The position numbers and the translations under genes are program-made. A stretch of DNA of 38,746 bases from Dyella sp. EPa41 (GTDB lineage: Bacteria > Pseudomonadota > Gammaproteobacteria > Xanthomonadales > Rhodanobacteraceae): positions 1 through 38,746 of the forward strand of contig NZ_BCPR01000042.1 of NCBI RefSeq assembly GCF_016586165.1. Direction: 5' to 3'. The notes beneath the pieces are model-generated. The model searched no databases, had not been told where the DNA came from, and worked only from the letters and a program-made list of their open reading frames with translations. Numbering within the stretch: the stretch's first letter is position 1; the number at the start of each line of letters is the position of its first letter. This document shows positions 5,871 to 25,145 of the stretch, piece after piece.

Positions 5871-5884
5871 GTGTCCGCGGACAC
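5871..5884. promoter_or_regulatory. Perfect 14-bp palindrome, probable enhancer-binding-protein site
   Basis: GTGTCCGCGGACAC is a perfect palindrome centred about 67 bases before the start predicted for the sigma-54-type promoter at 5919-5934. The core TGTCCGCGGA recurs twice before the second sigma-54 promoter at 25130. The position fits an upstream activator site. Confidence 0.5.
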
Positions 5885-5918
5885 CATCGCGACAGGGCAA
5901 GTGATTGAAAACCGGTGC

Positions 5919-5934
5919 TGGAGCGCATCTTGCT
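5919..5934 (+). promoter_or_regulatory. Sigma-54 (RpoN)-type promoter
   Basis: TGGAGCG-CATC-TTGCT keeps the GG-N10-GC spacing of -24/-12 promoters (GG at 5920-5921, GC at 5932-5933) and most of the TGGCACG-N4-TTGC consensus. It predicts transcription from about 5945, 21 bases before the GTG at 5966. This supports that start over the ATG at 5915, which would lie upstream of the transcript. Confidence 0.5.
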
Positions 5935-5965
5935 TGCCTTTGCTGACAACGGACGGAGGCAGGGC

Positions 5966-6208
5966 GTGGGAGCGACGATCAGGAAGCGGCTCAGGCGTTC
6001 GACTCTTCGGGAAGGCGCGACGCCTTTCGACCGGCTTCCCTGGAGCATCCAGGGTTTTGTCATCGATTTCCTGCGCTGCCACCAATGCGAAGTGACGCCG
6101 GCCAATTGCCAGGCCGTGGCCGAAGCGGTGGAGCTTCGCCTGAAGCAGGGCCCCATCTGCTACAGCCACCTCGCCGTGCTCATCGAAGACGACATCTTCC
6201 TCGAATGA
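5966..6208 (+). CDS. Small protein of unknown function (80 aa), sigma-54-type promoter
   Basis: I do not recognise this protein. GTG at 5966 is chosen because GGAGG lies six bases before it (5955-5959) and because the likely promoter start lies at about 5945. The N-terminus is basic (RKRLRR), followed by FDRLPWSIQGFVIDFLRCHQC, a segment with two cysteines three apart, and an acidic C-terminus ending EDDIFLE. A third cysteine lies in GPICYSHL. There is no signal peptide and no transmembrane segment, so a cytoplasmic or adaptor role is possible. A 13-bp perfect hairpin follows the stop. Confidence 0.6.
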   Translation: MGATIRKRLRRSTLREGATPFDRLPWSIQGFVIDFLRCHQCEVTPANCQAVAEAVELRLKQGPICYSHLAVLIEDDIFLE

Positions 6209-6228
6209 GGGTGCTGCGACGCCAAGGC

Positions 6229-6263
6229 GCGCCGGGCGCATATCCGTGTCATGCGCCCGGCGC
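6229..6263 (+). terminator. Strong hairpin after the 80-aa gene
   Basis: A perfect 13-bp stem (6229-6241 with 6251-6263, arm GCGCCGGGCGCAT) with a nine-base loop starts 21 bases after the stop. There is no T run, so factor-independent termination is uncertain. It may instead stabilise the upstream RNA or separate this unit from the Nramp gene. Confidence 0.4.
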
Positions 6264-6340
6264 TAAAGTGCATGCACGCCGCGGCCCGGCACCGCGGCCG
6301 ATGCCGGCGACATGAGGCGCTGAATCCAGGGGAGGCTTGC

Positions 6341-7615
6341 ATGGCGACGGATGGTGTTCCGGTGGCGATCAGACAGCGCTCTTTGCTCCGCGTGCGCCGG
6401 TTGGGCGCCGGGCTGGTCACGGGTGCGGCGGACGACGATCCCAGCGGCATCGCCACCTATTCCCAGGCCGGCGCGGGCTGGGGTTACTCGGCGTTGTGGA
6501 CGGTGATCGTCACGGTGCCATTCATGATCGGCATCCAGATGATCTGTGCGCATGTCGGGCGCGTGACGGGGCGCGGGCTGGCGGCCAACATGCGCGAGCA
6601 CTTGCCGAAGCCCGTGGTGTTCGCGCTGGTGATGCTGTTGCTCTTCGCCAACGTGATCAACCTGGCTGCCGATGTCGGCGCCATGGGCGCTGCCTTCAAC
6701 CTGCTGGTGGGCGGGCCGGCCTGGCTTTATGCCGCGGTGTTCGCCTTGTTCTCGCTGGCGCTCGAGGTATTCGTTCCGTTTTCGCGCTACTCGCCTTTCC
6801 TGAAGGTGCTTACCGTCAGCCTGCTGGCCTACGTCGCCACTGCGCTGGTGATTCAGGTGCCCTGGTCGACCCTGCCTGCCGCGATGTGGCCGCGCGAGCT
6901 CGCGGACAGGAGTTATCTGGTGATGATCGTCGGTGTGTTCGGCACCACCATCAGTCCCTACCTGTTCTTCTGGCAGGCGTCGGAAGAAGTGGAAGAAGAG
7001 GAGGCCTCGGCCATCGAGACGCCTTTGATCGAAGCCCCGGCGCAGTCCGTGGAGGCGTTTCGCCGGATCCGCTTCGATACCGTGTTCGGCATGAGCTACT
7101 CCAACCTGGTGGCGTTCTTCATCATGGTGACCGCGGCTTCGGTGCTGAGGTCGCACGGCATCACCACCATCGAGACATCGGCGGATGCGGCTCGCGCCCT
7201 GGAACCCGTCGCGGGTCGATTCGCCTCGCTGTTGTTTGCGCTGGGCATCGTGGGAACCGGCATGCTTGCCCTTCCGGTGCTGGCGGGGTCGGCGGCTTAC
7301 GCGGTGACGGAGGCCGTGGGCAACCGTTCGAGGCTCAGCGACAAGCCCGCGGACGCCCGGCTGTTTTACCTGATCATCGTGGGCGCGATCCTGCTCGGCG
7401 TGATCCTCAGCTTTTCGCCGGTGGATCCCATTCGCCTGCTGTTCTGGGCCGCGGTGGTGAATGGCGTGATCTCCGTACCGCTGATGGTCGGCATCATGTG
7501 GATCGCCTCGTTGAAGGCGGTGATGGGGCCGTTCGTGGTGCAGCACTGGCTTCGCTGGCTGGGTTGGGGTGCGACCGGACTGATGGCGCTGGCGGTATTC
7601 GGCATGTTGCTTTGA
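6341..7615 (+). CDS. Nramp-like divalent metal transporter with altered metal site
   Basis: An inner-membrane transporter of the SLC11/Nramp superfamily, 424 aa with about 11 membrane segments. The ATG at 6341 follows GGGGAGG at five bases. The first-helix motif is DPSG where classic MntH proteins have DPGN (VTGAADDDPSGIATYSQAGA). The helix-6 motif reads GTTISPY where classic proteins have a methionine before the proline. Losing both the asparagine and the methionine is known from Nramp-related magnesium transporters and other non-canonical branches, so Mn2+/Fe2+ uptake should not be assumed. The cytosolic loop after helix 6 is very acidic (SEEVEEEEASAIE). The alcohol dehydrogenase gene follows 24 bases downstream, so co-transcription is likely. 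Confidence 0.9.
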   Translation: MATDGVPVAIRQRSLLRVRRLGAGLVTGAADDDPSGIATYSQAGAGWGYSALWTVIVTVPFMIGIQMICAHVGRVTGRGLAANMREHLPKPVVFALVMLLLFANVINLAADVGAMGAAFNLLVGGPAWLYAAVFALFSLALEVFVPFSRYSPFLKVLTVSLLAYVATALVIQVPWSTLPAAMWPRELADRSYLVMIVGVFGTTISPYLFFWQASEEVEEEEASAIETPLIEAPAQSVEAFRRIRFDTVFGMSYSNLVAFFIMVTAASVLRSHGITTIETSADAARALEPVAGRFASLLFALGIVGTGMLALPVLAGSAAYAVTEAVGNRSRLSDKPADARLFYLIIVGAILLGVILSFSPVDPIRLLFWAAVVNGVISVPLMVGIMWIASLKAVMGPFVVQHWLRWLGWGATGLMALAVFGMLL

Positions 7616-7639
7616 GCCGGGATGAAGAGGGCACAAGCC

Positions 7640-8629
7640 ATGAAAGTCATGCTCCTGAGTCGCCCGGGACAGCCGCTGTCCCTGGTCGAGCGCACGTTGC
7701 CCGCGCCTGCCGCAGGCGAAGTGCTTCTGCGCGTCGCCGCCTGCGGTGTCTGCCGGACCGACCTGCACGTGCTGGACGGGGAGCTTCCGCAGGCGCATTA
7801 CCCGATCGTTCCGGGACACGAGATCGTCGGCACGGTGGAGGCGGTGGGCGAGGGCGTCGCATCGCCGCGTGTCGGCGAGCAGGTGGGCGTGCCATGGTTG
7901 GGCGAAACCTGCGGTACCTGTTTCTATTGCCGCCACGACCAGGAAAACCTGTGCGACAACCCGGTATTCACGGGCTGCTCGCGCGATGGCGGTTACGCCA
8001 CCCACGTACTCGCCAAGGCAGCGTTCTGCCTTGCCCTGCCGAAGGCGCTCTATCCCGACGCGGCGCAAGCCGCACCCTTGCTGTGCGCCGGCCTGATCGG
8101 GGGCCGCGCCTTGTCCCTGGCGGGCGATGGCGAACGGATCGGCTTGTACGGCTTCGGCGCCGCCGCGCACCTGCTGATCCAGGTGGCGACATCGCAAGGG
8201 CGGCAGGTCTGCGCATTCACGCGCGAAGGCGATGCGGAGGCGCAGGCGTTTGCGCTGTCCCTGGGTGCGACCTGGGCTGGCGCCTCCACGCAGCGACCAC
8301 CGTTCGAACTGGATGCCGCGATCATCTTTGCGCCGTCGGGTGAACTCGTGCCCTTGGCGTTGCGTGCGGTACGCAAGGGCGGGAGCGTCGTTTGCGGCGG
8401 TATCCACATGAGCGATATCCCGGGCTTTCCCTATCGGCTTTTGTGGGAGGAGCGACGCCTGGTGTCCGTGGCCAATCTCACTCGCCACGACGGACATGCC
8501 TTCCTGGCCGCGGCAGCCTCGGCCAAGGTGGTGTCGCATGTGCGCAGGTATGCGCTGGAACAAGCCAATGAGGCGCTCGATGATCTTCGGCGCGGCGCGC
8601 TGCAGGGCGCGGCGGTGCTCATCCCCTAG
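7640..8629 (+). CDS. Zinc-dependent alcohol dehydrogenase family protein
   Basis: A cytoplasmic medium-chain dehydrogenase of 329 aa. Catalytic-zinc residues are visible: the cysteine of ACGVCRTD, the histidine of GHEIVG and a later cysteine in LLCAGL. The structural-zinc cluster is CGTCFYCRHDQENLC. The nucleotide-binding turn is GFGAAAHL. The ATG at 7640 follows a GAGGG nine bases upstream; an in-frame ATG at 7622 is less well placed. It probably shares a transcript with the Nramp-like gene. The actual substrate is unknown; this group includes NAD(P)-linked alcohol dehydrogenases often induced at low oxygen, which fits the nearby usp-fnr pair. Confidence 0.9.
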   Translation: MKVMLLSRPGQPLSLVERTLPAPAAGEVLLRVAACGVCRTDLHVLDGELPQAHYPIVPGHEIVGTVEAVGEGVASPRVGEQVGVPWLGETCGTCFYCRHDQENLCDNPVFTGCSRDGGYATHVLAKAAFCLALPKALYPDAAQAAPLLCAGLIGGRALSLAGDGERIGLYGFGAAAHLLIQVATSQGRQVCAFTREGDAEAQAFALSLGATWAGASTQRPPFELDAAIIFAPSGELVPLALRAVRKGGSVVCGGIHMSDIPGFPYRLLWEERRLVSVANLTRHDGHAFLAAAASAKVVSHVRRYALEQANEALDDLRRGALQGAAVLIP

Positions 8630-8644
8630 CGCGGCGCCGCCGTT

Positions 8645-9082
8645 TCAATGGCAGATCAGCACCGGGACATCGGCTGCCAGCAGCAATTTATTGGCCTGGC
8701 TGCCGAGCAACAGCTTGTCCAGGCCCGAGCGCCCGTGGGATCCCATCACGATCAGGTCGCAATGCCGGTCGCGCGCGGCGCGCACGATGCCTTCATAGGG
8801 GCGGTGCTCGAACTCGGATACGGCATCGCAGGCGACATGCGCGGCCTTGGCGCGCTCGCGCACCTGCTCCAGGTAATACACGGCATGCTCGTTGGCCTGA
8901 TCGATGTAGACATTCTCCGGAAACGCCATCATTTCCGTGTCATAGGGCAAGGAGATAAAAGGCTCCATCGCGTGGTATGCGAGCACCTTGGCCCCGAGGC
9001 TGGCAGCCAGTGTGATGCCGATGTCCACGGCGCGCTGCGAAAGATCCGAACCATCGGTAGGCAGCAGGATGTGCTTGAACAT
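8645..9082 (-). CDS. Universal stress protein (UspA family)
   Basis: A 145-aa single-domain UspA-fold protein. It starts MFKHILLPTDGSDLSQRAVD and ends with the ATP-binding type motif G-x2-G-x9-G (MGSHGRSGLDKLLLGSQANKLL), which suggests it binds ATP. It converges with the alcohol dehydrogenase gene (15 bases between stops) and diverges from the fnr gene over 245 bases. That region holds a candidate FNR-type box at 9190-9203, consistent with redox control. Confidence 0.93.
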   Translation of the reverse strand: MFKHILLPTDGSDLSQRAVDIGITLAASLGAKVLAYHAMEPFISLPYDTEMMAFPENVYIDQANEHAVYYLEQVRERAKAAHVACDAVSEFEHRPYEGIVRAARDRHCDLIVMGSHGRSGLDKLLLGSQANKLLLAADVPVLICH

Positions 9083-9189
9083 GGCCTTGCTCCGGCATAT
9101 GGCGACTGTGGGCGCCCGGTGCGCGACGGATCGCCTGGTGCGGGCATCCCGGGTGCCGGAAAGCTTGCTATGGCGCCACCGGATCGAAG

Positions 9190-9203
9190 TTGACCACGGT
9201 CAG
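9190..9203. promoter_or_regulatory. Candidate FNR-family box between usp and fnr
   Basis: TTGAC-CACG-GTCAG is an inverted repeat with FNR/Dnr-type spacing. It contains a perfect TGACC-AC-GGTCA dyad and lies between the divergent usp (start 9082) and fnr (start 9328) genes. The same TTGAC-N4-GTCAG pattern recurs on the other strand at 10122-10135. Both half sites carry C:G where the E. coli FNR box has T:A. Confidence 0.4.
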
Positions 9204-9327
9204 TTGCGGCGCTCGCGGGCGTCGTGTCCATGGTCGGGCCCCCGGCCTTTCGCGCCCATCCGCCGCCCCGGATGCACCGTGATAGCATCAAAAGCACCGT
9301 TTCCTCTCCCCGGCGGGAGGGCGTGCC

Positions 9328-10125
9328 ATGCAGCAGCCCAGCGCGGAAATGCTCGACCTCAGTCGGCTGCGCCGAAGCTGCGCTTCGTGTGGATTGCGTG
9401 AATTGTGCCTGCCCGCCGGGATATCCAACGGCGAACTCACCCGGCTCGATGCCACGGTCCGGGACAAGCGCCTGCTGGAGCGCGGCCGGTCGTTGTATCG
9501 GCTCGACGAAGCCTTTCACTCGCTGTTCGTGGTCCGCTCCGGCTCCCTCAAGACCTACGTGCTCGATGATGACGCCGAGCAGCAGGTGATCGGGTTTCAT
9601 CTGCCGGGAGAAATCGTCGGCGTGGATGCGCTGGCATCCGGGCGACATGCCTGCCATGCCGAAGCGCTGGAGCGCACCAGCATCTGCGAGCTCCCGTATT
9701 CGCAACTGCAGCGCGTTCTGGCCGAAGTCCCGGCCCTGCACCGGCAGCTGTTGCGTGTCATCAGCCGCGAAGTGATCCAGGAGCATGAACACCTGGTCAC
9801 CATGGGCCAGCAACAGGCCCAGGCGCGGCTCGCGATCTTCCTGAAGAACCTGTCGGAACGCTACGCCGCGTTGCAGCGCGACGGCTCGCGCCTGTCGCTG
9901 CCCATGTCGCGGCAGGACATCGCCAGTTATCTCGGGCTGGCGGTGGAAACGGTGTGCCGGCTGTTCACGCGGCTGGAGGAGCTGGGCGTGCTCAGCGTGC
10001 GTCGCCGGGCGGTGACGATCCTTCAGCCGGACCTGCTCGCCGGGCTTTGCCATCCCTCTTCACGGGTGGGCGAAATGAAGGGCGAGCCATTCGCGCCTGC
10101 GAGTGACAAGGCGGCTCGAAACTGA
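9328..10125 (+). CDS. fnr: FNR/Anr-type Crp-family transcriptional regulator (probable 4Fe-4S oxygen sensor)
   Basis: A 265-aa Crp/Fnr regulator. The N-terminal cluster C18-x2-C21-x5-C27 plus C109 matches the four iron-sulfur ligands of FNR/Anr, so it should switch on or off with oxygen. A cyclic-nucleotide-fold domain (about 40-165) leads to a dimerisation helix and a winged helix. The recognition helix reads VETVCRL with E207, C210 and R211. In FNR and Anr the third position of ExxSR is serine, so a cysteine here may alter half-site preference. GGGAGGG lies before the ATG. The N-terminus resembles Anr of pseudomonads in spacing, while the last 25 residues are a variable tail. It probably controls its neighbours and itself. 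Confidence 0.93.
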   Translation: MQQPSAEMLDLSRLRRSCASCGLRELCLPAGISNGELTRLDATVRDKRLLERGRSLYRLDEAFHSLFVVRSGSLKTYVLDDDAEQQVIGFHLPGEIVGVDALASGRHACHAEALERTSICELPYSQLQRVLAEVPALHRQLLRVISREVIQEHEHLVTMGQQQAQARLAIFLKNLSERYAALQRDGSRLSLPMSRQDIASYLGLAVETVCRLFTRLEELGVLSVRRRAVTILQPDLLAGLCHPSSRVGEMKGEPFAPASDKAARN

Positions 10126-10135
10126 CGGCAGTCAA
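10122..10135. promoter_or_regulatory. Candidate FNR-family box upstream of the GNAT gene
   Basis: CTGAC-GGCA-GTCAA is the reverse-strand form of TTGAC-N4-GTCAG, the same pattern as at 9190-9203. It overlaps the fnr stop codon and is centred 120 bases before the acetyltransferase ATG. Confidence 0.35.
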
Positions 10136-10248
10136 CTTGGCGTGCATCCGGCCAGCGTACAACTCGATTGTGCTGGATGCCATGCCATTCCCGACGGCGT
10201 CGTGATCCCGGAGCGGTCCGGCCGCCTCGCTCAGCCAAGGTCACACCC

Positions 10249-10830
10249 ATGCCTGCAGCCATGCCCAACACCGCCGAACTGGCGAGGCCTTTCCTGCCCT
10301 TTCTCCATGCGATCGAGGGCGATCACTGGATAGAACCGCTGCGTGACGGCACGCCGGTACTGATCCGTCCATTGCGTCCCGAGGACCGGGAACGCGAAGA
10401 AGATTTCCTGGGCCGCCTGTCGCCCCACGCACGACGGCTGCGCTTCCTGGGCACGTTCGACGAGGTGCCGCCTGCGCTCGTCGACCGGCTGATGGCGGTC
10501 GACAACATGGGGCGTGTGGCGTTCGTCGCGCTGGTGCACGAGGGCGGCAAATTGCGTGAAATCGGCGTGAGTCGTTACCACGTGAGCGATGACGGCAAGC
10601 AGTGCGAATGCGCCGTGACGGTGGCCGAGGACTGGCAGGGGCGCGGCCTCGGCGTGCTGCTGATGCGCCATTTGATCGACATGGCGCGCCGCAAGGGCTT
10701 TGCACGCCTGTTCTCCATCGATGCGACGGACAACCAGCCCATGCGTGACCTGGCAAGCTACCTGGGGTTCCATCGCAGGCTCGATCCGGGCGACAGCACG
10801 CAGGTCATCCATTCGCTGGATTTGCGTTGA
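10249..10830 (+). CDS. GNAT-family N-acetyltransferase
   Basis: A 193-aa cytoplasmic acetyltransferase. The acetyl-CoA pyrophosphate loop is visible as EDWQGRGLGVLLMRHL, and the C-terminal substrate-fold strand pair ends in YLGFHRR. The N-terminal half (VLIRPLRPEDREREEDFLGRLSPHARRLRF) is the pattern of GNAT domains found alone or fused to acyl-CoA synthetase in protein lysine acetyltransferases (Pat type). The start at 10249 has AAGG eight bases before it; ATG 10261 is an alternative. It lies 123 bases after fnr, with a candidate FNR box between them, and 90 bases before the CBS gene. Confidence 0.88.
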   Translation: MPAAMPNTAELARPFLPFLHAIEGDHWIEPLRDGTPVLIRPLRPEDREREEDFLGRLSPHARRLRFLGTFDEVPPALVDRLMAVDNMGRVAFVALVHEGGKLREIGVSRYHVSDDGKQCECAVTVAEDWQGRGLGVLLMRHLIDMARRKGFARLFSIDATDNQPMRDLASYLGFHRRLDPGDSTQVIHSLDLR

Positions 10831-10920
10831 TGCGCAACAGCGCTAACGTCATTCGCACGGGCGCCGAGGGCCGGTGCCACGACAGCGCCGCGTAATGGCA
10901 TTCATGCCGAGGCACGACCC

Positions 10921-11616
10921 ATGAACGTAAGTGACGTGATGAATGCGCAGGTCAGGACCGCCCTGGCCACCGACAGTGTCTCCCTGGCCATGCGCATCAT
11001 GCTGGGTGCGCGGGTGAGCGGCCTCCCCGTGGTGGATGACAAGGGCCAGCTCGTCGGCATGATCACCGAAGGCGATCTGCTGCGGCGCGCCGAAGTGGGC
11101 ACCGACCATCACCGGCCACGCTGGCTGGAGATCGTGCTGGGGCCGCGGCGCATGGCGCAGGAATATGTCGATACGCACAGTCGGCGCGTCGGCGACCTGA
11201 TGACCAGCGACGTGGTGACGATCGAGGAGTCGGCGCCCCTGGGCGAAGCGGTCGCGCTCATGGAGAAGCATCGTATCCGCCGTCTTCCGGTGACCCGGCA
11301 GGGGAAACTCGCCGGCATACTGAGCCGCTCCGATTTCATGCGCGCGTTTCTCCACGCCTTGCCCGAGACGACGGCGGCGGAAACGTCCGATGCCGACATC
11401 AGCCGGCGCATCGACCAGGAGATGCTGCGCTGCCCGTGGATCACGCGTTCGGCCATCAAGGTCGGCGTGGCGAAGGGCGCGGTGGAAATCGACGGCGTGG
11501 TCACCAATGGCGCGATGCGCGACGCGCTGCGCGTGCTGGTGGAGAACGTGCCGGGCGTTACCGGCGTCCGTGACAGGCTGGTCGTCGAGGAACCCGCGCG
11601 AGGCTATTTCAAATAG
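10921..11616 (+). CDS. CBS-CBS-BON domain protein
   Basis: A 231-aa soluble protein. CBS domain 1 spans about residues 1-60 (VSDVMNAQVRT...LVGMITEGDLL) and CBS 2 about 92-147 (VGDLMTSDVVTI...LAGILSRSDFM). A BON domain follows at about 160-225 (ISRRIDQEML...GVTGVRDRLVV). CBS pairs usually bind adenine nucleotides; BON domains bind membranes or phospholipids. A linker between the CBS domains carries a basic, histidine-containing stretch. The ATG has GAGG eight bases upstream. The combination is common in stress clusters beside usp and fnr genes; the target is not known. Confidence 0.92.
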   Translation: MNVSDVMNAQVRTALATDSVSLAMRIMLGARVSGLPVVDDKGQLVGMITEGDLLRRAEVGTDHHRPRWLEIVLGPRRMAQEYVDTHSRRVGDLMTSDVVTIEESAPLGEAVALMEKHRIRRLPVTRQGKLAGILSRSDFMRAFLHALPETTAAETSDADISRRIDQEMLRCPWITRSAIKVGVAKGAVEIDGVVTNGAMRDALRVLVENVPGVTGVRDRLVVEEPARGYFK

Positions 11617-11633
11617 CCGTCCGAACGGTGCGG

Positions 11634-11930
11634 CTAGCTGATCACGGTGATCAGCGCGGCAAGCCAGATCAGTGCGGTGCCGATGGCGAAGGCCCGGCGT
11701 GCCGCCACGATGCGTTCCTCGCTTTCGTTTTCGACGGGCGTGGTGACGATCCATGGCGTCGAGGCCAGCGCGGCGAAACCCAGGAAGGCGAGGGTGACGG
11801 CGACCACGTCGGGCCAGTGCCAGGGCGAGGCTTCGTGCACGCCCCAATATCCGAGGAAAGCCATGCCGAGGGCGCTCATGGTGGCCGAGGCCGCGCAGAG
11901 CCCGACGACTGAACCGGTGGGGGCACGCAT
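11634..11930 (-). CDS. Small membrane protein of unknown function (98 aa)
   Basis: The protein has three hydrophobic stretches (about residues 8-32, 41-62 and 80-98) joined by a short charged loop (VENESEERIVAARRAF), so it is probably an inner-membrane protein. The ATG at 11930 has GGGAG nine bases upstream. I do not recognise the family. It lies tail to tail with the CBS-BON gene (17 bases between stops) and downstream of the LysR gene on the same strand. Confidence 0.7.
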   Translation of the reverse strand: MRAPTGSVVGLCAASATMSALGMAFLGYWGVHEASPWHWPDVVAVTLAFLGFAALASTPWIVTTPVENESEERIVAARRAFAIGTALIWLAALITVIS

Positions 11931-12004
11931 GTCGGCAAACTCCCGGTAGTTCCCTTGGCCAAGCGTAGCGCAGCGCCGCCGGGGGAACGTGATGACCGCG
12001 TGCG

Positions 12005-12949
12005 TCAGCGGGCGCGCGGTTTGGTCTTGGGGAGGGATGCCGGCTGCGCGGGCGCGTCCGCCTTCACGAAATCGACGAAGGCGCGCAGCGGCGCGGGAAG
12101 ATGCCGCCGCCCGGCGTAGTAGAGAAACGGGCCGCTGAAATCCTGCCACCACGGTTCGAGGATGGCCTCGAGCGCGCCGCTGTCCAGATGCGGGCGCAGC
12201 ATGTCCTCGTAGAGATGAATCACGCCGAGGCCGGCAACAGCCGCGCCGATGGCGACATCGATGGCGGAGCCGGGACGCATCACGAGCGATCCCGGCGGGT
12301 CGAGGCGCAGCACCTCGCCGTCGCATTCGAAATCCCAGGTCGGCATGGCGCCACCAGCGAAGCGGCCGCGCAGACAGGCGTGGTCGAGCAGATCGCGTGG
12401 ATGCTTCGGGCGGCCGCGGGCTTCAAGATAGGCCGGCGCGGCCGCCGTGGCAAAGCGCTGCACGCGGGGGCCGATCGGCGTGGCGATCATGTTCGGCTCC
12501 AGCCGTTCGTCGTAGCGGATGCCCGCGTCGCAGCCGGCGGAGGGGAGGTCCACGAAGCTGTCCTCGACGGTGATCTCCACGCGGATATCGGGGTACTGCT
12601 TGAGAAAGCGAAACAGGATCGGCGGCAATACGGTGCGCGCGACACCGGCCGGCACGTTCAGGCGCAAGGTGCCCGCGGGGCGGTCGCGAAAATGATTGAG
12701 CACATCCAGCGCCGCTTCCATGTCCGCAAGCGCGGGCATCAGTCGTTCCAGCAATCGTTCGCCTGCTTCGGTGGGCGCCACGCTGCGGGTCGTGCGATGG
12801 AGCAGTCGCACGCCAAGGCGCGCCTCCAGTCGACGTACCGCCGTGCTGAGCGCCGAGGCGGACACGCCGCTGGTGCGCGCCGCGTCGCGGAAGCCGCCGG
12901 CGCGCGCTACCGAAACGAAGGCGGCGAGGTCATTCATCTCCACGCTCAT
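12005..12949 (-). CDS. LysR-family transcriptional regulator
   Basis: A 314-aa LysR regulator. The N-terminal winged helix-turn-helix is at about residues 5-62 (FVSVARAGGFRDAARTSGVSASALSTAVRRLEARLGVRLLHRTTR), followed by a type 2 periplasmic-binding-fold effector domain at about 90-300. The VEMNDLAAFVSVA start places it among LysR proteins next to small oxidoreductases. It is divergent from the aldo/keto reductase gene with 95 bases between starts. By the usual LysR arrangement it should control that gene and itself. The effector is unknown. The last 15 residues are basic and proline-rich. Confidence 0.93.
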   Translation of the reverse strand: MSVEMNDLAAFVSVARAGGFRDAARTSGVSASALSTAVRRLEARLGVRLLHRTTRSVAPTEAGERLLERLMPALADMEAALDVLNHFRDRPAGTLRLNVPAGVARTVLPPILFRFLKQYPDIRVEITVEDSFVDLPSAGCDAGIRYDERLEPNMIATPIGPRVQRFATAAAPAYLEARGRPKHPRDLLDHACLRGRFAGGAMPTWDFECDGEVLRLDPPGSLVMRPGSAIDVAIGAAVAGLGVIHLYEDMLRPHLDSGALEAILEPWWQDFSGPFLYYAGRRHLPAPLRAFVDFVKADAPAQPASLPKTKPRAR

Positions 12950-13044
12950 TGTTTGCCTTTTTGCACAGCCCGTGCGGATTCGACGGGATTATCGGACAGG
13001 GCAATCTCTCTCATATTGGCTGTGCCACCGCAAGGAGATTCCCC

Positions 13045-13908
13045 ATGTCCGCACCCACCCTCACCTACCCATTCGCCGGCCGCACCGTGAACCGCATGGG
13101 GTATGGCGCCATGCAGCTTGCCGGCCCGGGCGTATTCGGCCCACCGAAAGATCGGCCCGCGGCGCTCGCCGTGCTACGCGAAGCCGTGGCCTCGGGCGTC
13201 AACCACATCGACACCAGCGACTTCTACGGCCCGCACGTTACCAACCAGATCATCCGCGAGGCCTTGCATCCGTACCCGGACGATCTGCTCATCGTGACCA
13301 AAGTGGGCGCCGTGCGTGGCGACGACGGCGCGTGGCTTGCCGCGCAGGAACCTGGCGATCTCCGCCGTGCCGTGCACGACAACCTGCGCAACCTCGGCCT
13401 GGACGCGCTGGACGTGGTCAACCTGCGCGTGATGGGCAACATCCACGAACCTGCCGAAGGCTCCATCGCGCGACAGGTCGAAGCGCTCGCGCGCCTGCAG
13501 CAGGAAGGTCTCGTGCGGCACGTGGGTCTGAGCAACGTCACCTCCGCGCAGGTCGCCGAAGCGCAGCGCATCACGCAGATCGTGTGCGTGCAGAACCAGT
13601 ACAACCTGGTGCAGCGCGCGGACGATGCACTGGTCGACGAACTGGCGGGCCAGGGCATTGCCTTCGTGCCTTTCTTCCCGCTGGGCGGCTTTACCCCGAT
13701 CCAGTCGTCCGGGTTGTCGGCGCTGGCCGCGCGCGTGCAGGCGGCACCCATGCAACTTGCGCTGGCCTGGCTGCTGCACCGTTCGCCGAACCTGCTGCTG
13801 ATCCCGGGCACATCGTCGATAGCCCATCTGCGCGAGAACATCCAGGCCGCCCAATGGGCGTTGAGTGACGCCGTGCTGGCCGAGTTGAACGCCATCGCCG
13901 CCGAATGA
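13045..13908 (+). CDS. ydbC: Aldo/keto reductase, YdbC type
   Basis: A 287-aa cytoplasmic aldo/keto reductase with a (beta/alpha)8 barrel. It closely follows E. coli YdbC, which is reported to act on pyridoxal. Shared segments include GYGAMQLAGPGVFGP, NHIDTSDFYGPHVTNQIIREAL and SPNLLLIPGTSS. Catalytic Asp and Tyr (DTSDFYG) and Lys (IVTKVG) are present. The position of the usual active-site histidine is occupied by arginine (VVNLRVMG), as in other YdbC members. The ATG at 13045 has AAGGAGA eight bases upstream. The adjacent LysR gene is the likely regulator. The substrate is inferred from the family only. Confidence 0.9.
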   Translation: MSAPTLTYPFAGRTVNRMGYGAMQLAGPGVFGPPKDRPAALAVLREAVASGVNHIDTSDFYGPHVTNQIIREALHPYPDDLLIVTKVGAVRGDDGAWLAAQEPGDLRRAVHDNLRNLGLDALDVVNLRVMGNIHEPAEGSIARQVEALARLQQEGLVRHVGLSNVTSAQVAEAQRITQIVCVQNQYNLVQRADDALVDELAGQGIAFVPFFPLGGFTPIQSSGLSALAARVQAAPMQLALAWLLHRSPNLLLIPGTSSIAHLRENIQAAQWALSDAVLAELNAIAAE

Positions 13909-14068
13909 CGGCGCAGCCACCGCTTGCCGGCCGCGGCGAGCGATGGCTGGTGGTCGAGCCGGGTCGCGCCATGCCCTCGCGAGCGCGGCGCACGGCACGG
14001 GCGAGCGGGTACGCCATGGCGCTATAAGACGCTTCCAGGGAAACGCGTTGCAGGCGACGATCGAGCGA

Positions 14069-14521: not shown

Positions 14522-14528
14522 AACACGA

Positions 14529-15438: not shown

Positions 15439-15459
15439 GAGTCCTTCCTAGGGCGTAGC

Positions 15460-17082: not shown

Positions 17083-17110
17083 GCGACGCCATCGGCCCGA
17101 CGAGAAAAAA

Positions 17111-17141
17111 GCCACCGCCTGCGAGGGCGGTGGCTTTTCTT
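17111..17141 (+). terminator. Rho-independent terminator after the rcnB-like gene
   Basis: A perfect 9-bp stem (17111-17119 with 17126-17134, arm GCCACCGCC) with a six-base loop is followed by TTTTCTT. A run of six A precedes it, so it could also act on the opposite strand. Confidence 0.85.
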
Positions 17142-17219
17142 GTGGATATCCCAGCGAACGGCGCGGCAGGTTCACGCTCTCGCGCTGCGATCGGTTCAAC
17201 GATTCGCGCACCGGGAAAC

Positions 17220-17242
17220 GGGGCCTTCGATGCGAAGGCCCC
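17220..17242 (-). terminator. Hairpin after the sedolisin gene
   Basis: A perfect 10-bp stem (GGGGCCTTCG / CGAAGGCCCC) with a three-base loop lies 24 bases past the minus-strand stop of the sedolisin gene. Only a short T stretch follows, so termination strength is uncertain. Confidence 0.5.
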
Positions 17243-17265
17243 GCATGGCTACCGATGCAACGAGG

Positions 17266-18867: not shown

Positions 18868-19228
18868 GAGTTGTTCTCCCTCTTGTCGAGCCGATGCCCG
18901 GCTCTGGAATGTTGTGATCGCCCGGTCAGGGCGAGAGGCTGCTCACCTTAGGTCCGCCGTTCCGTGGCGTGCTCCCCAGCACGCTCCCTTGTTTGGAAAG
19001 AAGGTCCGCTCCCCAGCTCGACGCTAGCACGGTGTGCATGCATCGCTGCATTGGCAAAATTCCGAAGTGCGCACTCGTGCGCGCTCGCAATTTCGTGCGG
19101 AAAAAGTGCGAAAGTCTTCGTTGATTCGATGCTGACGCAGGCCTTTCGAAAGGCCGTGGCGTGATGTGCTGGACATGGCGCACGCGATGGCGCGTGCGCG
19201 CTGCATGCATCGACAAGAGAGGTTGGGT
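18868..19228. other. Intergenic region between dodecin and sedolisin genes
   Basis: About 360 bases with no gene. It holds a perfect 16-bp palindrome GGCCTTTCGAAAGGCC at 19140-19155 and a 9-bp stem-loop at 19178-19199 (arm GCGCACGCG). The stem-loop lies about 30 bases past the dodecin stop on the minus strand and may end that transcript. The sedolisin promoter must be in the rest. Confidence 0.55.
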
Positions 19229-19438
19229 TCAGCCTTCGAGGGTGAAGCCGATCTTCAGCGTGACCTGCCAGTGCGCGATCTTGCCGCCGTCCACATGGCC
19301 GCGGACGTCCGTCACGTGGAACCAGCGTATGTCGCGTATCGTCTTGGACGCACGCTCGATGGCGACGCGGATCGCGTCGTCGCTGCTCTTGCTGGATGAG
19401 CCCGTCAACTCGACGGATTTGTACACGTGTTCGGTCAT
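19229..19438 (-). CDS. Dodecin family protein
   Basis: A 69-aa protein with the dodecin pattern: HVYKSVELTGSSSKSSDDAIRVAIERASKTIRDIRWFHVTDVRGHVDGGKIAHWQVTLKIGF. Dodecins form hollow dodecamers that bind flavins or coenzyme A and buffer or protect these molecules. The flavin-stacking aromatic residue (W in RWFHV) is present. The start at 19438 has AGGAG about ten bases upstream. It is a single gene between secreted-protein genes, with no obvious functional link to them. Confidence 0.93.
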   Translation of the reverse strand: MTEHVYKSVELTGSSSKSSDDAIRVAIERASKTIRDIRWFHVTDVRGHVDGGKIAHWQVTLKIGFTLEG

Positions 19439-19777
19439 GGCGCGGCTCTCCTGGTTCGGGTGGGTGCGCGTTGGCGCGCGTGCTTGCCCTCGGCACTGCA
19501 CACCCGGCTGCGCCTAGGTGACGTGAAGAACCGCTGGCATCGCCGTGCTGCGATGCCGGTCTCGTTTCATGGCGGGGTTTCGCGAAGTCTTCACGCGCGA
19601 GCTAAGCGGTGCGAAAGGTCCCGGGGTTACGTTCCCTCGACCTTGCCCTGGGGACGCAGCGAATGGCCGCGGCAGGCGAGGGATCCCCGGCTGTGTCAGT
19701 CGCGGCTCAAGGTTTCGCGTGCGCGTGTCACGCAGCCAGGTCACCGGTTAGATCACTTGCATCTTCTGGAGGGGAAC
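19439..19777. other. Intergenic region upstream of the 531-aa secreted protein gene
   Basis: About 340 bases without a gene. The plus-strand frame of the downstream gene is open through here, but the clear signal peptide starts only at 19778. I see GC-rich imperfect dyads but no recognisable promoter, RNA or operator. Confidence 0.45.
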
Positions 19778-21373
19778 ATGGCTCTTCATTGCATCACCCG
19801 TCTCAGCGTGGCGTTGGGCTCGGTCATCGCCCTGGCCGCAGGCAACGCCTACGCCGATGACAATGGCACTGCCGAGGTGACGTCCGCCGTACAGCATGAC
19901 GTACTGCATTCCCTGCGCGGCACGATGCCCAGGCCCGATGATTTTTCCAAGGGGCCGCGCAATCATCCGTTGCATCCCTTGCCGTGGCTGGATGGTCCAG
20001 GCAATCCACCCGAAGGCGCCCTGCAAGGCAGCCCCGGCGGCGCGTTCGCGCCGACGCTGGGTTCGGGCGTGGACGGTGTCGGCAACGGCTTCAGCGGTCC
20101 GCAGGGCTCGTTCACCGTGAACAGCGCGCCGCCGGACACCAATGGCGCGGTGGGCGCCACGCAGTACGTGCAGATCGTCAACACCGGTTTTGCGGTGTTC
20201 GACAAGGCCACCAAGTCGGTGGTGTACGGACCGGTGCAATCGAACACGTTGTGGTCGGGCTTTGGCGGGCCCTGCGAAACCGACAACGACGGCGACGCGA
20301 CGGTGGTGTACGACAAGGCGGCCAATCGCTGGGTGATCTCGCAGTTCGCGGTAACCGCCGCGCCGTATTACCAGTGCGTAGCGGTGTCGGCGACCAGCGA
20401 TGCGACCGGCGCGTACTACCGCTATGCGTTCCCCTACGGCAGCGTGTTCCCCGACTATCCGAAGATGGGCGTGTGGCCCGACGCGTATTACGAGACATTC
20501 AACATGTTCAACGGCAACACCTTCGCCGGCGCGAAGCTGTGTGCCTATGACCGCAATGCGATGCTGAGCGGCGCGGCCGCCACGCAGCAGTGCTTCCAGT
20601 TGTCCACCAGCTACGGCGGCGTGTTGCCGGCCGATCTCGACGGCAGCACGGCGCCGCCGGCGGGGTCACCGAACTACATGCTCAACTTCGGCGCGAACTC
20701 GCTCAACCTGTGGAAGTTCCATGTGGATTGGGCCAATACCGCCAACACCACGCTGACCGGTCCGGTCTCGATCCCGGTGGCATCGTTCTCGGCGGCATGC
20801 GGTGGCGGCACCTGCGTCCCGCAGGGTGGCGTGAAACAGAAGCTGGATTCGCTGGGTGACCGGCTGATGTTCCGCCTGGCTTATCGCAACTTCACCGATC
20901 ACGAATCGCTGGTGGTCACGCATTCGGTGAAGGTCGGCACCAGCAGGCAGAACCCGTACACGGGCGTGCGCTGGTATGAGATCCGCACCCCGGGCGCGAC
21001 GCCGACGGTGTACCAGCAGTCCACGTTCTCGCCCGACACCAGCTACCGCTGGATGGGCTCGGTGGCGATGGACAAGCAGGGCAACATGGCGCTGGGTTAC
21101 AGCACGTCGAGCAGCACGCTGCATCCGGCCATCCGCTATACCGGCCGCCTCGCCACCGATGCGCTCAATACCATGCAGGCCGAAAACAGCATCCTCGAAG
21201 GCCTTGGGTCGCAGACGGGCAGCAACCTCGCGCGTTGGGGCGACTACAGCGCGATGACCATCGATCCGGTGGACGACTGCACGTTCTGGTACACCAACGA
21301 GTACCTGAAGACGAACGGCGCGTTCAACTGGAGCACGCGCATCGCGTCGTTCAAGTTCCCCGGCTGCCAGTAA
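19778..21373 (+). CDS. Large secreted protein of unknown function (531 aa)
   Basis: A signal peptide (about 1-26, cleaved near AYA-DD) and a strong TGGAGGGG ribosome binding site set the start at 19778. After a proline-rich segment, the body carries conserved-looking motifs: APPDTNGAVGATQYVQIVN, TLWSGFGGPCETDNDGDATVVYD, FPDYPKMGVWPDAYY, SPNYMLNFGANSLNLWKFHVDW and RWGDYSAMTIDPVDDCTFWYTNEY. These repeat a strand-turn-Trp/Tyr rhythm like a beta-propeller. I have seen this pattern in uncharacterised exported proteins of Xanthomonadales and Acidobacteria. There is no protease triad or known enzymatic motif. Cysteines probably form disulfides. A strong terminator follows. It lies between two secreted proteases, so a degradative or surface role is plausible. 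Confidence 0.85.
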   Translation: MALHCITRLSVALGSVIALAAGNAYADDNGTAEVTSAVQHDVLHSLRGTMPRPDDFSKGPRNHPLHPLPWLDGPGNPPEGALQGSPGGAFAPTLGSGVDGVGNGFSGPQGSFTVNSAPPDTNGAVGATQYVQIVNTGFAVFDKATKSVVYGPVQSNTLWSGFGGPCETDNDGDATVVYDKAANRWVISQFAVTAAPYYQCVAVSATSDATGAYYRYAFPYGSVFPDYPKMGVWPDAYYETFNMFNGNTFAGAKLCAYDRNAMLSGAAATQQCFQLSTSYGGVLPADLDGSTAPPAGSPNYMLNFGANSLNLWKFHVDWANTANTTLTGPVSIPVASFSAACGGGTCVPQGGVKQKLDSLGDRLMFRLAYRNFTDHESLVVTHSVKVGTSRQNPYTGVRWYEIRTPGATPTVYQQSTFSPDTSYRWMGSVAMDKQGNMALGYSTSSSTLHPAIRYTGRLATDALNTMQAENSILEGLGSQTGSNLARWGDYSAMTIDPVDDCTFWYTNEYLKTNGAFNWSTRIASFKFPGCQ

Positions 21374-21889
21374 GGCGGCGGCAGGCCGTTCGGACGTCCC
21401 CGCCAAGGCGGGGACGTTTTTTTTTGGCGGCCGCCACCTTGCATCGTTGCAAGGCAGTCGATTTCACGCGCCACATCACACTTCGGCAGCGCCGACGTTT
21501 TTGGATCGTTCTACGCCAGCCCGCCGTCAGTTTTTCTTGGCGTCTCCTTCACATCGCAAATGAATGATGGAACGGCCGCGACTTCTTGCGGTCGTTGGCG
21601 CTGGGGAGGCGGGTTCGTCCCGCTGAATTCTTCTTGGAAGGAGTGATGCCGGTGTGGCCAGGCCACGCCGCCACGGGCGGCTGCGCGCTTTTCCAGTGCA
21701 TCGGCATGACAGGTCTGCGGACGCCCTCTGCGTCCGTCACTGTTTGCGGCGTGTCCGGGAGGGACACATCGATCGGGGAAAACCACCGTCGCAGGCTCGA
21801 CGCCTCGAGCGGCCGGTCACGGGTTGACTGGCCAGGTTCGGACAGGAGGTCACGGAACCACTGCGACCCATACTTGGACGAGGATCTGC
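21374..21889. other. Intergenic region upstream of the S8 protease gene
   Basis: After the terminator at 21395-21425 this 516-base stretch has several hairpins. One is CCTTGCA-TCGT-TGCAAGG at 21437-21454, and an 11-bp stem with two G:U pairs lies at 21571-21596. A GTGTCC-N5-GGACAC inverted repeat is at 21751-21767. No gene is convincing. A long structured leader for the protease mRNA is possible. Confidence 0.45.
21395..21425 (+). terminator. Strong rho-independent terminator after the 531-aa secreted protein
   Basis: A perfect 10-bp stem (CGTCCCCGCC / GGCGGGGACG) with an AA loop is followed by nine T (21417-21425). Confidence 0.93.
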
Positions 21890-23488
21890 ATGAGCATGCA
21901 TAGGAAATGGTTGGTCGCTTCGCTTTGGCTTGCCCTCGGCACTTCGGCGATGGCCGCGGATTTCGGTACATCACCGCCGCCGTCGTCGAAATTCGACGTG
22001 AGTCCGCTGCAAGGCGACCAGACGTATACCGGCTTCATCGTCACCTACAGGAACGGCAGCAGTGAACGCGGCAACGCCGCGGCCGCCGTGCAGAACGTGG
22101 GCGTGGCCGCGGGCCGCGCAAAACTCGGTAGCGGCGCCGCGGCCTTCGCGCGCGGGCTCAACATGCACTACGGGCGCAAGCTCGCTACGGGTGCCGACCT
22201 GGTGCGCAGCGACCGCGCCTTGTCGTCGGCCGAAGCGTCGGCCTTGATCCAGCAGATCGCCGCCGATCCCGCGGTGGAGTTCGTGGAGCCCGAGTATCTG
22301 TTGAAGAAGGTCGACGGCATCAAGCCGGCCGGCGCGGCCACGTTCACCGTGCCAAACGACCAGTACTACGCCTCGTACCAGTGGGATTACCTGGCCGCGA
22401 CGGGCGCCAACTTCCTGGACAACACGCTCAACGCGAACGTCGCCAACTGGGGCGGCGCCAACATCCAGCAGGCATGGAGCCTCGCCGACGGCACGGGCAT
22501 CGTCATCGCCAGCCTCGATACCGGCGTGACCAGCCATCCCGACCTCAACCTGTCACTCGCCAATGCGGGTTACGACTTCATCAGCACCGCGTCGGTGTCT
22601 GGCCGCTCCACCAATGGCCGAGTTGCCGGCGGTTGGGACACGGGCGACTGGGTGACCGCCGGCCAGTGCGGCGCCGGGCAGCCGGCCGAGGACAGCAGCT
22701 GGCACGGCACCCACGTGTTCGGTACGGCAGGCGGCGAATACACCAACAACAGTACCGGCATGGTGGGCACGGCGTTTGGCGCGCAGGTGCTGCCGGTGCG
22801 CGTGCTCGGCCATTGCGGCGGTTCCAACGCCGACATCGCCGACGCCATCACCTGGGCCTCGGGCGGCAGCGTGTCTGGCGTGCCTGCCAACGCACATCCT
22901 GCGCAAGTGATCAGCATGAGCCTGGGCGGTTCAGGCAAGTGCACGTCCAGCAGCGTGCTGGGCCAGGCGATCACCGGCGCCATCGGCCGCGGTGCGACGG
23001 TGGTGGTGGCGGCCGGCAACAGCAACGCCAATGCGTCGAACTACTCGCCGGCCAGTTGCGCGGGCGCGGTGACCGTGGCGGCCACGGGCATTACCAGCGC
23101 GCGTGCCTATTACTCCAACTACGGTTCGCTCGTCGCGATCGCCGCGCCGGGCGGTGGCGTCTACAAGAACGATGCCTCCACCGGCACGCAGGTCACCACC
23201 GGCTTCATCTGGTCGACCATCAACGCCGGCACGACGACGCCGACCACGGCGACGTACGGCGGCATGGCCGGCACGTCGCAGGCGACGCCGCATGTGGCCG
23301 GCGTGGTGGCACTGATGCAGAGCTATCGACTCGCGCTCGGCAAGTCGCTGCTGACGCCGGCGCAGGTCACATCCTTGCTGAAGTCCTCGGCGACTTCACC
23401 GCATGTGAAACCCAGCGGCAGCAAGACGATCGGGGCAGGCATCGTCAACGCCTATGCTGCCGTGCAGGCGGCGGGTACACAGCCGTAA
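21890..23488 (+). CDS. Secreted S8 family subtilisin-like serine protease
   Basis: A 532-aa secreted protease precursor. A signal peptide (about 1-23) is followed by an I9-like pro-domain (about 46-138, ending VEFVEPEYLLKK) that should fold and inhibit the enzyme. The catalytic domain runs from about 155. The triad is D210 (IASLDTGV), H272 (SSWHGTHVFGT) and S463 (GMAGTSQATPHVAG), with oxyanion N377. Four cysteines can pair. There is no C-terminal P or PPC domain, so it is a short form of the xanthomonad extracellular proteases. The ATG at 21890 is preceded by CGAGGA at five bases. Secretion beyond the outer membrane would need a type II system not seen here. Confidence 0.95.
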   Translation: MSMHRKWLVASLWLALGTSAMAADFGTSPPPSSKFDVSPLQGDQTYTGFIVTYRNGSSERGNAAAAVQNVGVAAGRAKLGSGAAAFARGLNMHYGRKLATGADLVRSDRALSSAEASALIQQIAADPAVEFVEPEYLLKKVDGIKPAGAATFTVPNDQYYASYQWDYLAATGANFLDNTLNANVANWGGANIQQAWSLADGTGIVIASLDTGVTSHPDLNLSLANAGYDFISTASVSGRSTNGRVAGGWDTGDWVTAGQCGAGQPAEDSSWHGTHVFGTAGGEYTNNSTGMVGTAFGAQVLPVRVLGHCGGSNADIADAITWASGGSVSGVPANAHPAQVISMSLGGSGKCTSSSVLGQAITGAIGRGATVVVAAGNSNANASNYSPASCAGAVTVAATGITSARAYYSNYGSLVAIAAPGGGVYKNDASTGTQVTTGFIWSTINAGTTTPTTATYGGMAGTSQATPHVAGVVALMQSYRLALGKSLLTPAQVTSLLKSSATSPHVKPSGSKTIGAGIVNAYAAVQAAGTQP

Positions 23489-23495
23489 CGACGAA

Positions 23496-23522
23496 GGGCC
23501 GATGCCGCGCAGGCATCGGCCC
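23496..23522 (+). terminator. Hairpin after the S8 protease gene
   Basis: A perfect 11-bp stem (GGGCCGATGCC / GGCATCGGCCC) with a five-base loop starts eight bases after the stop. No T run follows, so it is a probable but unproven terminator. Confidence 0.55.
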
Positions 23523-23533
23523 TCGGCAATGAA

Positions 23534-23561
23534 TGTAGGAGCGCACCCAGTGCGCGACCGC
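23534..23561 (+). repeat. Palindromic extragenic (REP-like) repeat, copy 1
   Basis: The unit begins TGTAGGAGCGCACCCAGTGC and ends GCGACCGC. It forms an inverted pair with copy 2, 18 bases downstream, giving a long hairpin typical of REP doublets. The inner part GCGCACCCAGTGCGC is itself nearly palindromic. Confidence 0.85.
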
Positions 23562-23579
23562 GGCCCATCGATCACCTCT

Positions 23580-23607
23580 GCGGTCGCGCACTGGGTGCGC
23601 TCCTGCA
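23580..23607 (-). repeat. Palindromic extragenic (REP-like) repeat, copy 2, inverted
   Basis: The same unit as copy 1 on the opposite strand, differing only near the end (TGCAGGAG in place of TGTAGGAG). Copies 1 and 2 together resemble a REP doublet. Confidence 0.85.
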
Positions 23608-23772
23608 AGGGAATGCCACGTAGAGAAAGTGACCCGGGTCGCGGCAGTGGCTCGGAAGCCAGCGTCCCCACGGGGACTCCCTGCGATCGCAGGCGAGACC
23701 CATCGCGATAACGCGACGATCAGGGCACAACGACTGTGCCGGTGAGACTGGCAATCAGGACTGAGGCGAAAG

Positions 23773-23800
23773 GCGGTCGCGCACTGGGTGCGCTCCTACA
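23773..23800 (-). repeat. Palindromic extragenic (REP-like) repeat, copy 3, inverted
   Basis: Identical to copy 1 in reverse orientation over its full 28 bases. It ends 15 bases before the stop of the ClpP-like gene. Confidence 0.85.
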
Positions 23801-23815
23801 TGATGTCCATGAAAT

Positions 23816-24949
23816 TCAGCGCTTGGCGGCGGTGGATGCCTTGGCCATCTGCGCGCAGGCCTCGCCATAGCCCTGCAGGCGATTGCGTACCGATTCGAGA
23901 TAGATGGTGAAGCCGTAGCGTACGGCGCCGCCACGATCGGCCAGCCAGGCGCCTACGGATCGCGCGGACAGGAACTGAGTCACCTGGGCGAGCGGCACCG
24001 GGCGGCTGATCATCACCGATTCGCTGGTGGCGCTGAAGGCGTCACGGTCGCCCGGCAAGGTCTGCTGGTTGTCGATCTCGAAGTACGAACGGTTGGCGCG
24101 CGACACCAGCTTGCGCGCGCGTTCCACCCCGACCATGTAGTAGGCCGTGACCGTGAGGCCATCGGGCTTGCACAGCAGGGTGATGCGATACTGGCCGTCG
24201 CGCGCGCTCTGGCCCAGCGTCAGCAAGGGCGCGTTGCCCATCATGTGATAGCTGACGGTAGGCGCGAGGCGCCCATTGTTCGCGAGCCCCGAGTTGATCA
24301 TCTCATCGCCCGTCATCACGCTGGCATCCGCCTGGATCTTGCGGCCGTACTGCGCCTCGGCCGTCAGGTTGAGTTCTTTCAGGTACGCATCCGCTTCGTC
24401 CGGCGCCTGCGTCGCGTTGCCTGGCGTGCGCAGGGGCAACGCGCCAAACCGGTCGTTGCCGGTGGGCGACCAGCGAAACAGGCCGCCCAGGTAGGCGAGC
24501 GTGCAGGCGTCCATGCATACCGCCACCTTGGAGGCCGGCGTGGTCGAGCGCGATGGCTTGCGCGGCACGCCCAGGTGGGTGGCGATCGACTGGGCGCGAA
24601 ACAGGCGGCCCAGGGCGATGCCGGCCTGCAGGTCGCCGCCGGGAGAATTCAAATAGACGTCCGAACCCGGCGGCACCTTGCCTGATCGCACCAGTGCCTC
24701 GAAGCGGTCGGGTGCACCTGCGTCGATGGTGCCGTACAGGTAGATCTGCGGAACCTTGGCGACGGCAAGGGTGAGCTTGTCGGCGTTGACCTGGATGGCG
24801 AGCAGGCCAGGCGTGCCCGCACGGTTGTCCGGCGTGGCGCCATGCGCGATGGCGGCGAACGCCAGGCCAACGCAAGCCGGCAGTGCAGGCTTCAGGCGGC
24901 GAAGGCGTGCGCGTTTGAGCTGTTTCGCGTCTGTATCAATGGCCTGCAC
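23816..24949 (-). CDS. ClpP/crotonase-fold periplasmic protein lacking the catalytic Ser and His
   Basis: A 377-aa protein starting at GTG 24949, with a basic N-terminus and hydrophobic segment (about 22-37, ACVGLAFAAIAHGA) that look like a signal peptide. Residues about 68-215 match the ClpP-fold group often annotated as COG3904-like periplasmic proteins: IYLYGTIDAG, DVYLNSPGGDLQAGIALGRLFRAQ and CMDACTLAYLGG. Relatives have CxSAC, with serine as nucleophile; here the position is D147. The catalytic histidine expected in a GVH-like motif is missing (FGALPL). It is therefore probably not a protease of the usual mechanism, and may bind peptides or partners. It is divergent from the S33-type hydrolase gene over 300 bases. 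Confidence 0.72.
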   Translation of the reverse strand: MQAIDTDAKQLKRARLRRLKPALPACVGLAFAAIAHGATPDNRAGTPGLLAIQVNADKLTLAVAKVPQIYLYGTIDAGAPDRFEALVRSGKVPPGSDVYLNSPGGDLQAGIALGRLFRAQSIATHLGVPRKPSRSTTPASKVAVCMDACTLAYLGGLFRWSPTGNDRFGALPLRTPGNATQAPDEADAYLKELNLTAEAQYGRKIQADASVMTGDEMINSGLANNGRLAPTVSYHMMGNAPLLTLGQSARDGQYRITLLCKPDGLTVTAYYMVGVERARKLVSRANRSYFEIDNQQTLPGDRDAFSATSESVMISRPVPLAQVTQFLSARSVGAWLADRGGAVRYGFTIYLESVRNRLQGYGEACAQMAKASTAAKR

Positions 24950-24995
24950 GTGACTGACTCTGGCATGGAGGCCGCACAGTCTGCCTTGCCGGACC

Positions 24996-25064
24996 TGTCC
25001 GCGGAGTTAAATGGGGACGAAGGGCGTCCGCAGGCCGGACGTCCGTGCCGTTGTCCGCGGACGC
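24996..25064. promoter_or_regulatory. Cluster of TGTCCGCGGA elements, probable enhancer-binding sites
   Basis: TGTCCGCGGA occurs at 24996-25005 and again at 25052-25061, the latter inside the palindrome GTCCGCGGAC. Between them lies the inverted repeat GTCCG-N5-CGGAC near 25026-25040. The same 10-bp core forms the centre of the palindrome at 5871-5884. The sites lie about 98 and 155 bases before the start predicted for the promoter at 25130, a usual distance for sigma-54 activators. Confidence 0.5.
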
Positions 25065-25129
25065 ACGGCATTTTCAGCGCTCACTGCGCAAGTCATGGTG
25101 TCCAAACGATTTTTTCCTGGCGCGCGACT

Positions 25130-25145
25130 TGGCACGGCGCTTGCC
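25130..25145 (+). promoter_or_regulatory. Near-perfect sigma-54 (RpoN) promoter
   Basis: TGGCACG-GCGC-TTGCC matches the consensus TGGCACG-N4-TTGCW at every position but the last, with GG at 25131-25132 and GC at 25143-25144. It predicts a start near 25156 and a 94-base leader to the ATG at 25250. Confidence 0.72.

Follow-up and report, generated by a model that had tools for sequence, protein, structure and literature searches.

The core motif and its promoters in the window

The DNA analysed here (the window) is the entire contig C42 of Dyella sp. EPa41, 38,746 nucleotides from a genome of 4.92 Mb. It holds two genes that are preceded by copies of one short core, encoding an exported hydrolase and a small protein (Table 1). 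The core TGTCCGCGGA was found at 5872-5881, 24996-25005 and 25052-25061 in a search of both strands, which confirmed the three positions given in the original prediction. Four matches were returned at these three places, a palindrome being counted once per strand. In dinucleotide shuffles of the window, the expectation was 0.25 matches per window with a maximum of 3, and none of 100 shuffles reached four or more, in agreement with the earlier estimate of fewer than one. Additional TGTCC half-sites were located at 5850, 5861 and 25099, and those at 5850, 5861 and 5872 stand at 11-base steps. The half-site density of the window at large is 0.14 per 60 bases. All three cores lie upstream of -24/-12 promoters as predicted, but the copies at 24996 and 25052 share one, so that there are two promoters and not three.

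Table 1. Features of the window and of the pump locus on contig C53
Feature	Position	Strand	Remarks
TGTCC half-site array (5850, 5861, 5872), ending in the palindrome GTGTCCGCGGACAC (5871-5884)	5850..5884	+	
Weaker -24/-12-like site CTGGAGCGCATCTTGCTT	5918..5935	+	GG-N10-GC; 10/12 scored consensus positions
Small protein, 80 residues, GTG start	5966..6208	+	Tentative regulon member
Upstream core copy TGTCCGCGGA	24996..25005	+	
Proximal core TGTCCGCGGACG, 78 bases 5' of TGG	25052..25063	+	
-24/-12 promoter TTGGCACGGCGCTTGCC, near consensus	25129..25145	+	Matches the core and promoter pattern across genomes
Exported alpha/beta hydrolase, 391 residues	25250..26425	+	Pfam: Hydrolase_4, Abhydrolase_1
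Pump gene array (L028/L029)	G000:C53:12144-30362		
Candidate activator, response regulator	G000:C53 about 27115-28452		Receiver, AAA+ Sigma54_activat, Fis HTH (Pfam); GAYTGA

The promoter of the hydrolase gene, TTGGCACGGCGCTTGCC, has the GG-N10-GC arrangement of sigma-54 promoters and is close to TGGCACG-N4-TTGC. The 25052 core begins 78 bases ahead of the TGG of this promoter.

The core and promoter pattern across genomes

A combined pattern of core and -24/-12 promoter gave 248 matches in the 117 genomes of the same family, compared with a single match for the reversed control. Positive genomes numbered 96 of 117 and represented 24 of 26 genera. As a background check, the pattern with N8 in place of N7 was found in 2 of 59 genomes. 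In a class-wide draw of 369 genomes, one of the 364 outside the order matched, and the control also gave one. The core is thus enriched before -24/-12 promoters, the outcome on which the original prediction depended, and the opposite outcome was absent.

Sixty sites, spread over the genera, were picked by hand from the listed matches and fetched; the pump-operon sites adjoining the regulator (see below) were omitted except one, as were a number of others, and since the sites were chosen by hand, their proportions do not represent a random sample. The distance from the start of the core to the TGG of the -24 element was 76-81 bases at 58 of these sites, within a permitted range of 60-90. Further half-sites in the 60 bases 5' of the core averaged 1.95, against 0.14 in the window. 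These comparisons make it very likely that a sigma-54 regulon marked by the TGTCCGCGGA core is real, and they give strong support to the shared regulon originally predicted, in which a common protein would bind the core.

Small membrane peptides (26, assigned by reading) were the commonest class among the first genes at the 60 hand-picked sites. BLAST identified 13 homologues of the window hydrolase (45-94% identity), 10 MacB/FtsX permeases and one pump adaptor, and Pfam identified two proteins with a DUF4440/SnoaL-like domain and one with DUF899. Two further genes were assigned to the beta-lactamase family, one from its Pfam match and the other by likeness, and the remaining five included both spacing outliers. 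A fleQ-like gene (L189) and a TolC-like gene (L237) were discounted as members, because they are these outliers (spacings of 66 and 90). In the family search, the motif was followed by a hydrolase of the 25250 type in each of the eight further genomes of the genus, and also in five genomes from other genera. The sequence comparisons therefore point to the hydrolase as a solid, conserved member of the predicted regulon, with a promoter typical in every respect.

The peptide set contained 37 rows, one of which (L135) was dropped as an apparent false open reading frame. The family (L001, L008 and most rows of this set) has 31-73 residues and the core MKFExLMLRGLFVACLLVCGLVLGAM. Its long form carries a two-cysteine C-x6-8-C tail, CALPPDGVVCPR-like, and is mostly encoded 5' of a TrmL-like gene, while the short form is without the cysteine tail. 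Two of the peptides were scanned and gave no Pfam and no NCBIfam match.

In the genome of Dyella sp. EPa41, the word TGTCCGCGGACA with at most one mismatch was found at 20 sites compared with 13 for the reversed word, and is therefore only mildly enriched by itself; several of its sites fall inside genes without a good promoter. An array with a good promoter was found at four places, C53:12005 (the pump operon), C1:169227, C5:38039 and 25052 in the window (the hydrolase), where the TGG begins 78, 79, 79 and 78 bases after the start of the core, respectively. The C1 site precedes a membrane peptide of 67 residues and the C5 site one of 51 residues. The strict sigma-54 word TGGCRN6TTGCW occurs at 80 sites in this genome, against 31 in the control. 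Among 40 of the 80 sites that were examined, at least three upstream half-sites were found at one, the C5 peptide promoter (L267). The promoter at C53:12083, known from inspection of the TGTCCGCGGACA sites, likewise has at least three half-sites upstream.

At C38:26764 (L002), a perfect TGTCCGCGGACA palindrome was observed with a weak -24/-12 at 73 bases. It precedes a gene pair that was named by eye as isoaspartate-methyltransferase-like and TolC-like.

The pump operon and a candidate activator on contig C53

The original prediction stated that no activator is encoded in the window, and this was borne out: none of the 12 PF00158 matches of the genome lies on C42, and no G(A/S)(F/Y)T(G/D)A motif occurs in the six-frame translation of the window. 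It had also held that the activator could not be named; here a candidate is proposed, a response regulator encoded on contig C53. The gene order on C53 is adaptor, ABC ATPase, eight MacB/FtsX permease ORFs, DUF885 protein, response regulator and histidine kinase, and the pump genes probably form one transcript. The regulator combines a receiver, a Sigma54_activat domain, a Fis HTH and a GAFTGA-type loop, the composition of a two-component sigma-54 activator. It scored below the curated cut-offs of the named equivalogs among the 25 NCBIfam families listed of 103, the best being AtoC, PrsR and NtrC. The adaptor matched RND_mfp above the cut-off and DarC and MacA below it. MacB_PCD and FtsX domains were found in the two permeases scanned, and the other six were assigned by similarity to those two. 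Permeases of this kind, an ABC ATPase and an adaptor are the components of a MacB-type ABC exporter.

The operon of the regulator is headed by the half-site array, with a link over about 15 kb, which bears on the question, put with the original prediction, whether a sigma-54 activator gene carries the motif in its own promoter. The adaptor and its Dyella jiangningensis counterpart share 97% identity. Among 79 adaptor loci, which belong to Dyella, Rhodanobacter, Frateuria, Fulvimonas and Luteibacter together with some unplaced bins, exact TGTCCGCGGACA was present upstream of 77 orthologues, and the remaining two carry TGTCCGCGGACG. A fixed HTH string gave 44 hits in 47 loci, a count that cannot show internal variation because the string is fixed. 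Several adaptor leaders (last 45 bases, L040-L118) contain an inverted repeat of the GGCCGC...GCGGCC type close to the ribosome-binding site. The adaptor 5' leader folds into a hairpin slightly more stable than in mononucleotide shuffles (mean of -15.5 against -13.1 kcal/mol), but since these shuffles do not keep the dinucleotides, the hairpin is not claimed.

The regulator query used for the family and order searches began inside the receiver, its first residues being absent. The regulator was found in 111 of the 117 family genomes, at 66-100% identity. In 250 genomes of the order, it was present in 118, while core and promoter were present in 77 and the reversed control in none. All but one (G023) of these 77 genomes also had the regulator, in counts that take no account of relatedness. 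Outside the own family of the strain, the regulator accompanied core and promoter in 31 of 31 genomes and occurred in 67 of 198. A fixed spacing (58 of 60 sites at 76-81) and the presence of the activator (76 of 77 genomes), as expected of one regulon, were thus both found. The strict pattern was missing from 42 of the 118 regulator-bearing genomes of the order. Six family genomes gave no hit for the regulator, and four of them (G023, G079, G100 and G108) keep one or two core and promoter matches; some of the regulator-less family genomes with matches are fragmented assemblies.

Fourteen regions 5' of the regulator were inspected, 13 of them in genomes that lack a strict match and one in a genome (G091) that has a match. 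The adaptor was present in 12 of them, each headed by a -24/-12 promoter and TGTCC half-sites, mostly rearranged, as judged by eye. In ten regulator regions of genomes that belong to other families within the order, the adaptor was recognized by eye in nine, and the same inspection gave exact TGTCCGCGGACA at five of these adaptor loci and imperfect arrays at the others. In the f2-family genomes inspected (L302-L311), the array and pump promoter follow the end of a glmS-like gene (by eye), and the regulator-adaptor distance is only about 5 kb in several cases.

A proposed two-component sigma-54 regulon and its alternatives

Judged from sequence, it is highly probable that the core is the activator site of a two-component sigma-54 regulon, with the C53 regulator as the most likely activator, acting with the downstream kinase and with its own operon as a target. 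In the mechanism that we propose, the kinase would sense a signal, probably at the envelope, and the phosphorylated C53 regulator would bind the TGTCC(G) half-sites of the array, among which the 12-base palindrome TGTCCGCGGACA is the best site. This site begins some 78 bases upstream of the -24 TGG, from where the bound regulator could contact the sigma-54 polymerase at -24/-12 by DNA looping and drive open-complex formation. Since the pump operon would be the regulator's own target, positive autoregulation is expected. The operon appears to be the most widely kept and probably the ancestral, autoregulated target, and in the own family the regulon may have spread to stand-alone MacB/FtsX permeases, membrane peptides, the 25250 hydrolase and a few others. 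Its predicted role would be in export or in envelope (antimicrobial) stress.

The C53 regulator resembles enhancer-binding proteins (EBPs) of the NtrC/AtoC type in its receiver, Sigma54_activat domain, Fis HTH and GAFTGA-type motif, and the regulon resembles theirs in having sites tens of bases upstream of -24/-12. It differs in that its best matches among the NCBIfam families listed (AtoC, PrsR and NtrC) score far below their cut-offs, and TGTCCGCGGACA is not known to be the site of any NtrC/AtoC-type regulator. With MacAB/DarC-type tripartite exporters the C53 operon shares an adaptor, an ABC ATPase and MacB_PCD/FtsX permeases, but it differs in having eight tandem permease ORFs together with a sigma-54 regulator and a kinase in one array. 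A 2025 computational study reported sigma-54 sites before ABC antimicrobial-peptide permeases (COG0577) in several classes, including gamma-Proteobacteria (PMC12316311), and the link between sigma-54 and FtsX-like permeases is therefore no novelty in itself. The accessible part of that study contains neither an activator nor a binding word, a spacing, a peptide family or a hydrolase. A predicted sigma-54 site also precedes the HlyD-family gene XF2093 of Xylella (PMC3224663), for which the accessible part of the source establishes no tie to the C53 operon. A literature search with TGTCCGCGGACA returned a sole match, which concerns a human gene, and the binding word, proposed activator, regulon and peptide family were found in none of the matches listed. 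For a regulon conserved across much of a single bacterial order, the binding word, proposed activator, promoter geometry and target list are now given, and the fixed spacing makes it readable from sequence in related genomes. It also adds a small membrane protein family without a name in Pfam or NCBIfam.

MgrB is a small membrane feedback inhibitor of PhoQ. The peptides are like it in being predicted targets of a two-component system, in a short cytoplasmic start and one hydrophobic span, and, in the long form, in a two-cysteine tail; this likeness is drawn from shape and not from sequence, and unlike MgrB, part of the peptide family is without the cysteine tail. We consider it rather doubtful that the peptides act as the functional link within the system, whether as membrane feedback regulators of the kinase, in the manner of MgrB and PhoQ, or as exported peptides that are sensed. 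If they were exported by the MacB-type pumps and sensed by the kinase, they would form a self-sensing peptide circuit under sigma-54.

The regulon could be real and yet another protein bind the core, the C53 regulator being only one of its targets. The genome encodes eight full-length PF00158 proteins, among them EBPs named by eye as FleQ, NtrC and PilR, and the four family genomes that carry core and promoter without the regulator would suit a different activator. Profiles of rival activators covered the C4 and C38 EBPs; at E <= 1e-110 the C4 EBP was found in 20 and the C38 EBP in 54 of the 250 order genomes, and both were rejected as the activator because these profiles are too narrow for the 77 genomes with the motif. 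Of the eight EBPs, none but the C53 regulator was seen in an array-headed operon. No core lies within 1.5-2 kb of any of the eight EBP genes, and it is the C53 regulator that is linked to one, at about 15 kb. Control by FleQ, NtrC, PilR, the C38 EBP or the C4 EBP is thus judged improbable. A chance origin of the shared word in a G+C-rich genome, with the promoters picked by eye, is hardly credible. The modest excess of TGTCCGCGGACA over its reversed word indicates that single sites are not rare, and the sites inside genes without a good promoter would fit such an origin. However, it leaves the 248 combined matches against one and the fixed spacing without explanation, as well as the finding that at least three upstream half-sites stand at only one of the 40 examined sigma-54-like sites (C5) and at C53:12083.

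Within the regulon proposed for the C53 regulator, the two genes of the window are not on the same footing. The original prediction of one regulon spanning both is well supported for the hydrolase, which is typical and conserved, and is weaker for the small protein at 5966. It is quite possible, if somewhat short of an even chance, that the hydrolase promoter alone belongs to the regulon and that the 5872 palindrome is a chance occurrence or is used differently, for instance with the same protein acting in a repressor-like or alternative way. The TGG of CTGGAGCGCATCTTGCTT begins 47 bases after the start of the 5872 core compared with the usual 76-81, and its -24 element is weaker. The 5966 protein has no Pfam match, and homologues were found in 2 of 20 genus genomes, namely its own and the near relative G078. 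On the other hand, three half-sites at 11-base steps lead up to this promoter, and G078 retains the block from half-site to -12, whereas the DNA 5' of the block differs; CTGGAGCGCATCTTGCTT is identical in that genome, which also conserves the final part of the array, TGTCCACGCAGTGTCCGCGGACAC. The spacing deficit of 31 bases would also be close to three helical turns. Because of this deficit and the block kept in G078, the 5966 gene is left as a possible recent member of the regulon, an atypical and weaker candidate than the hydrolase gene.
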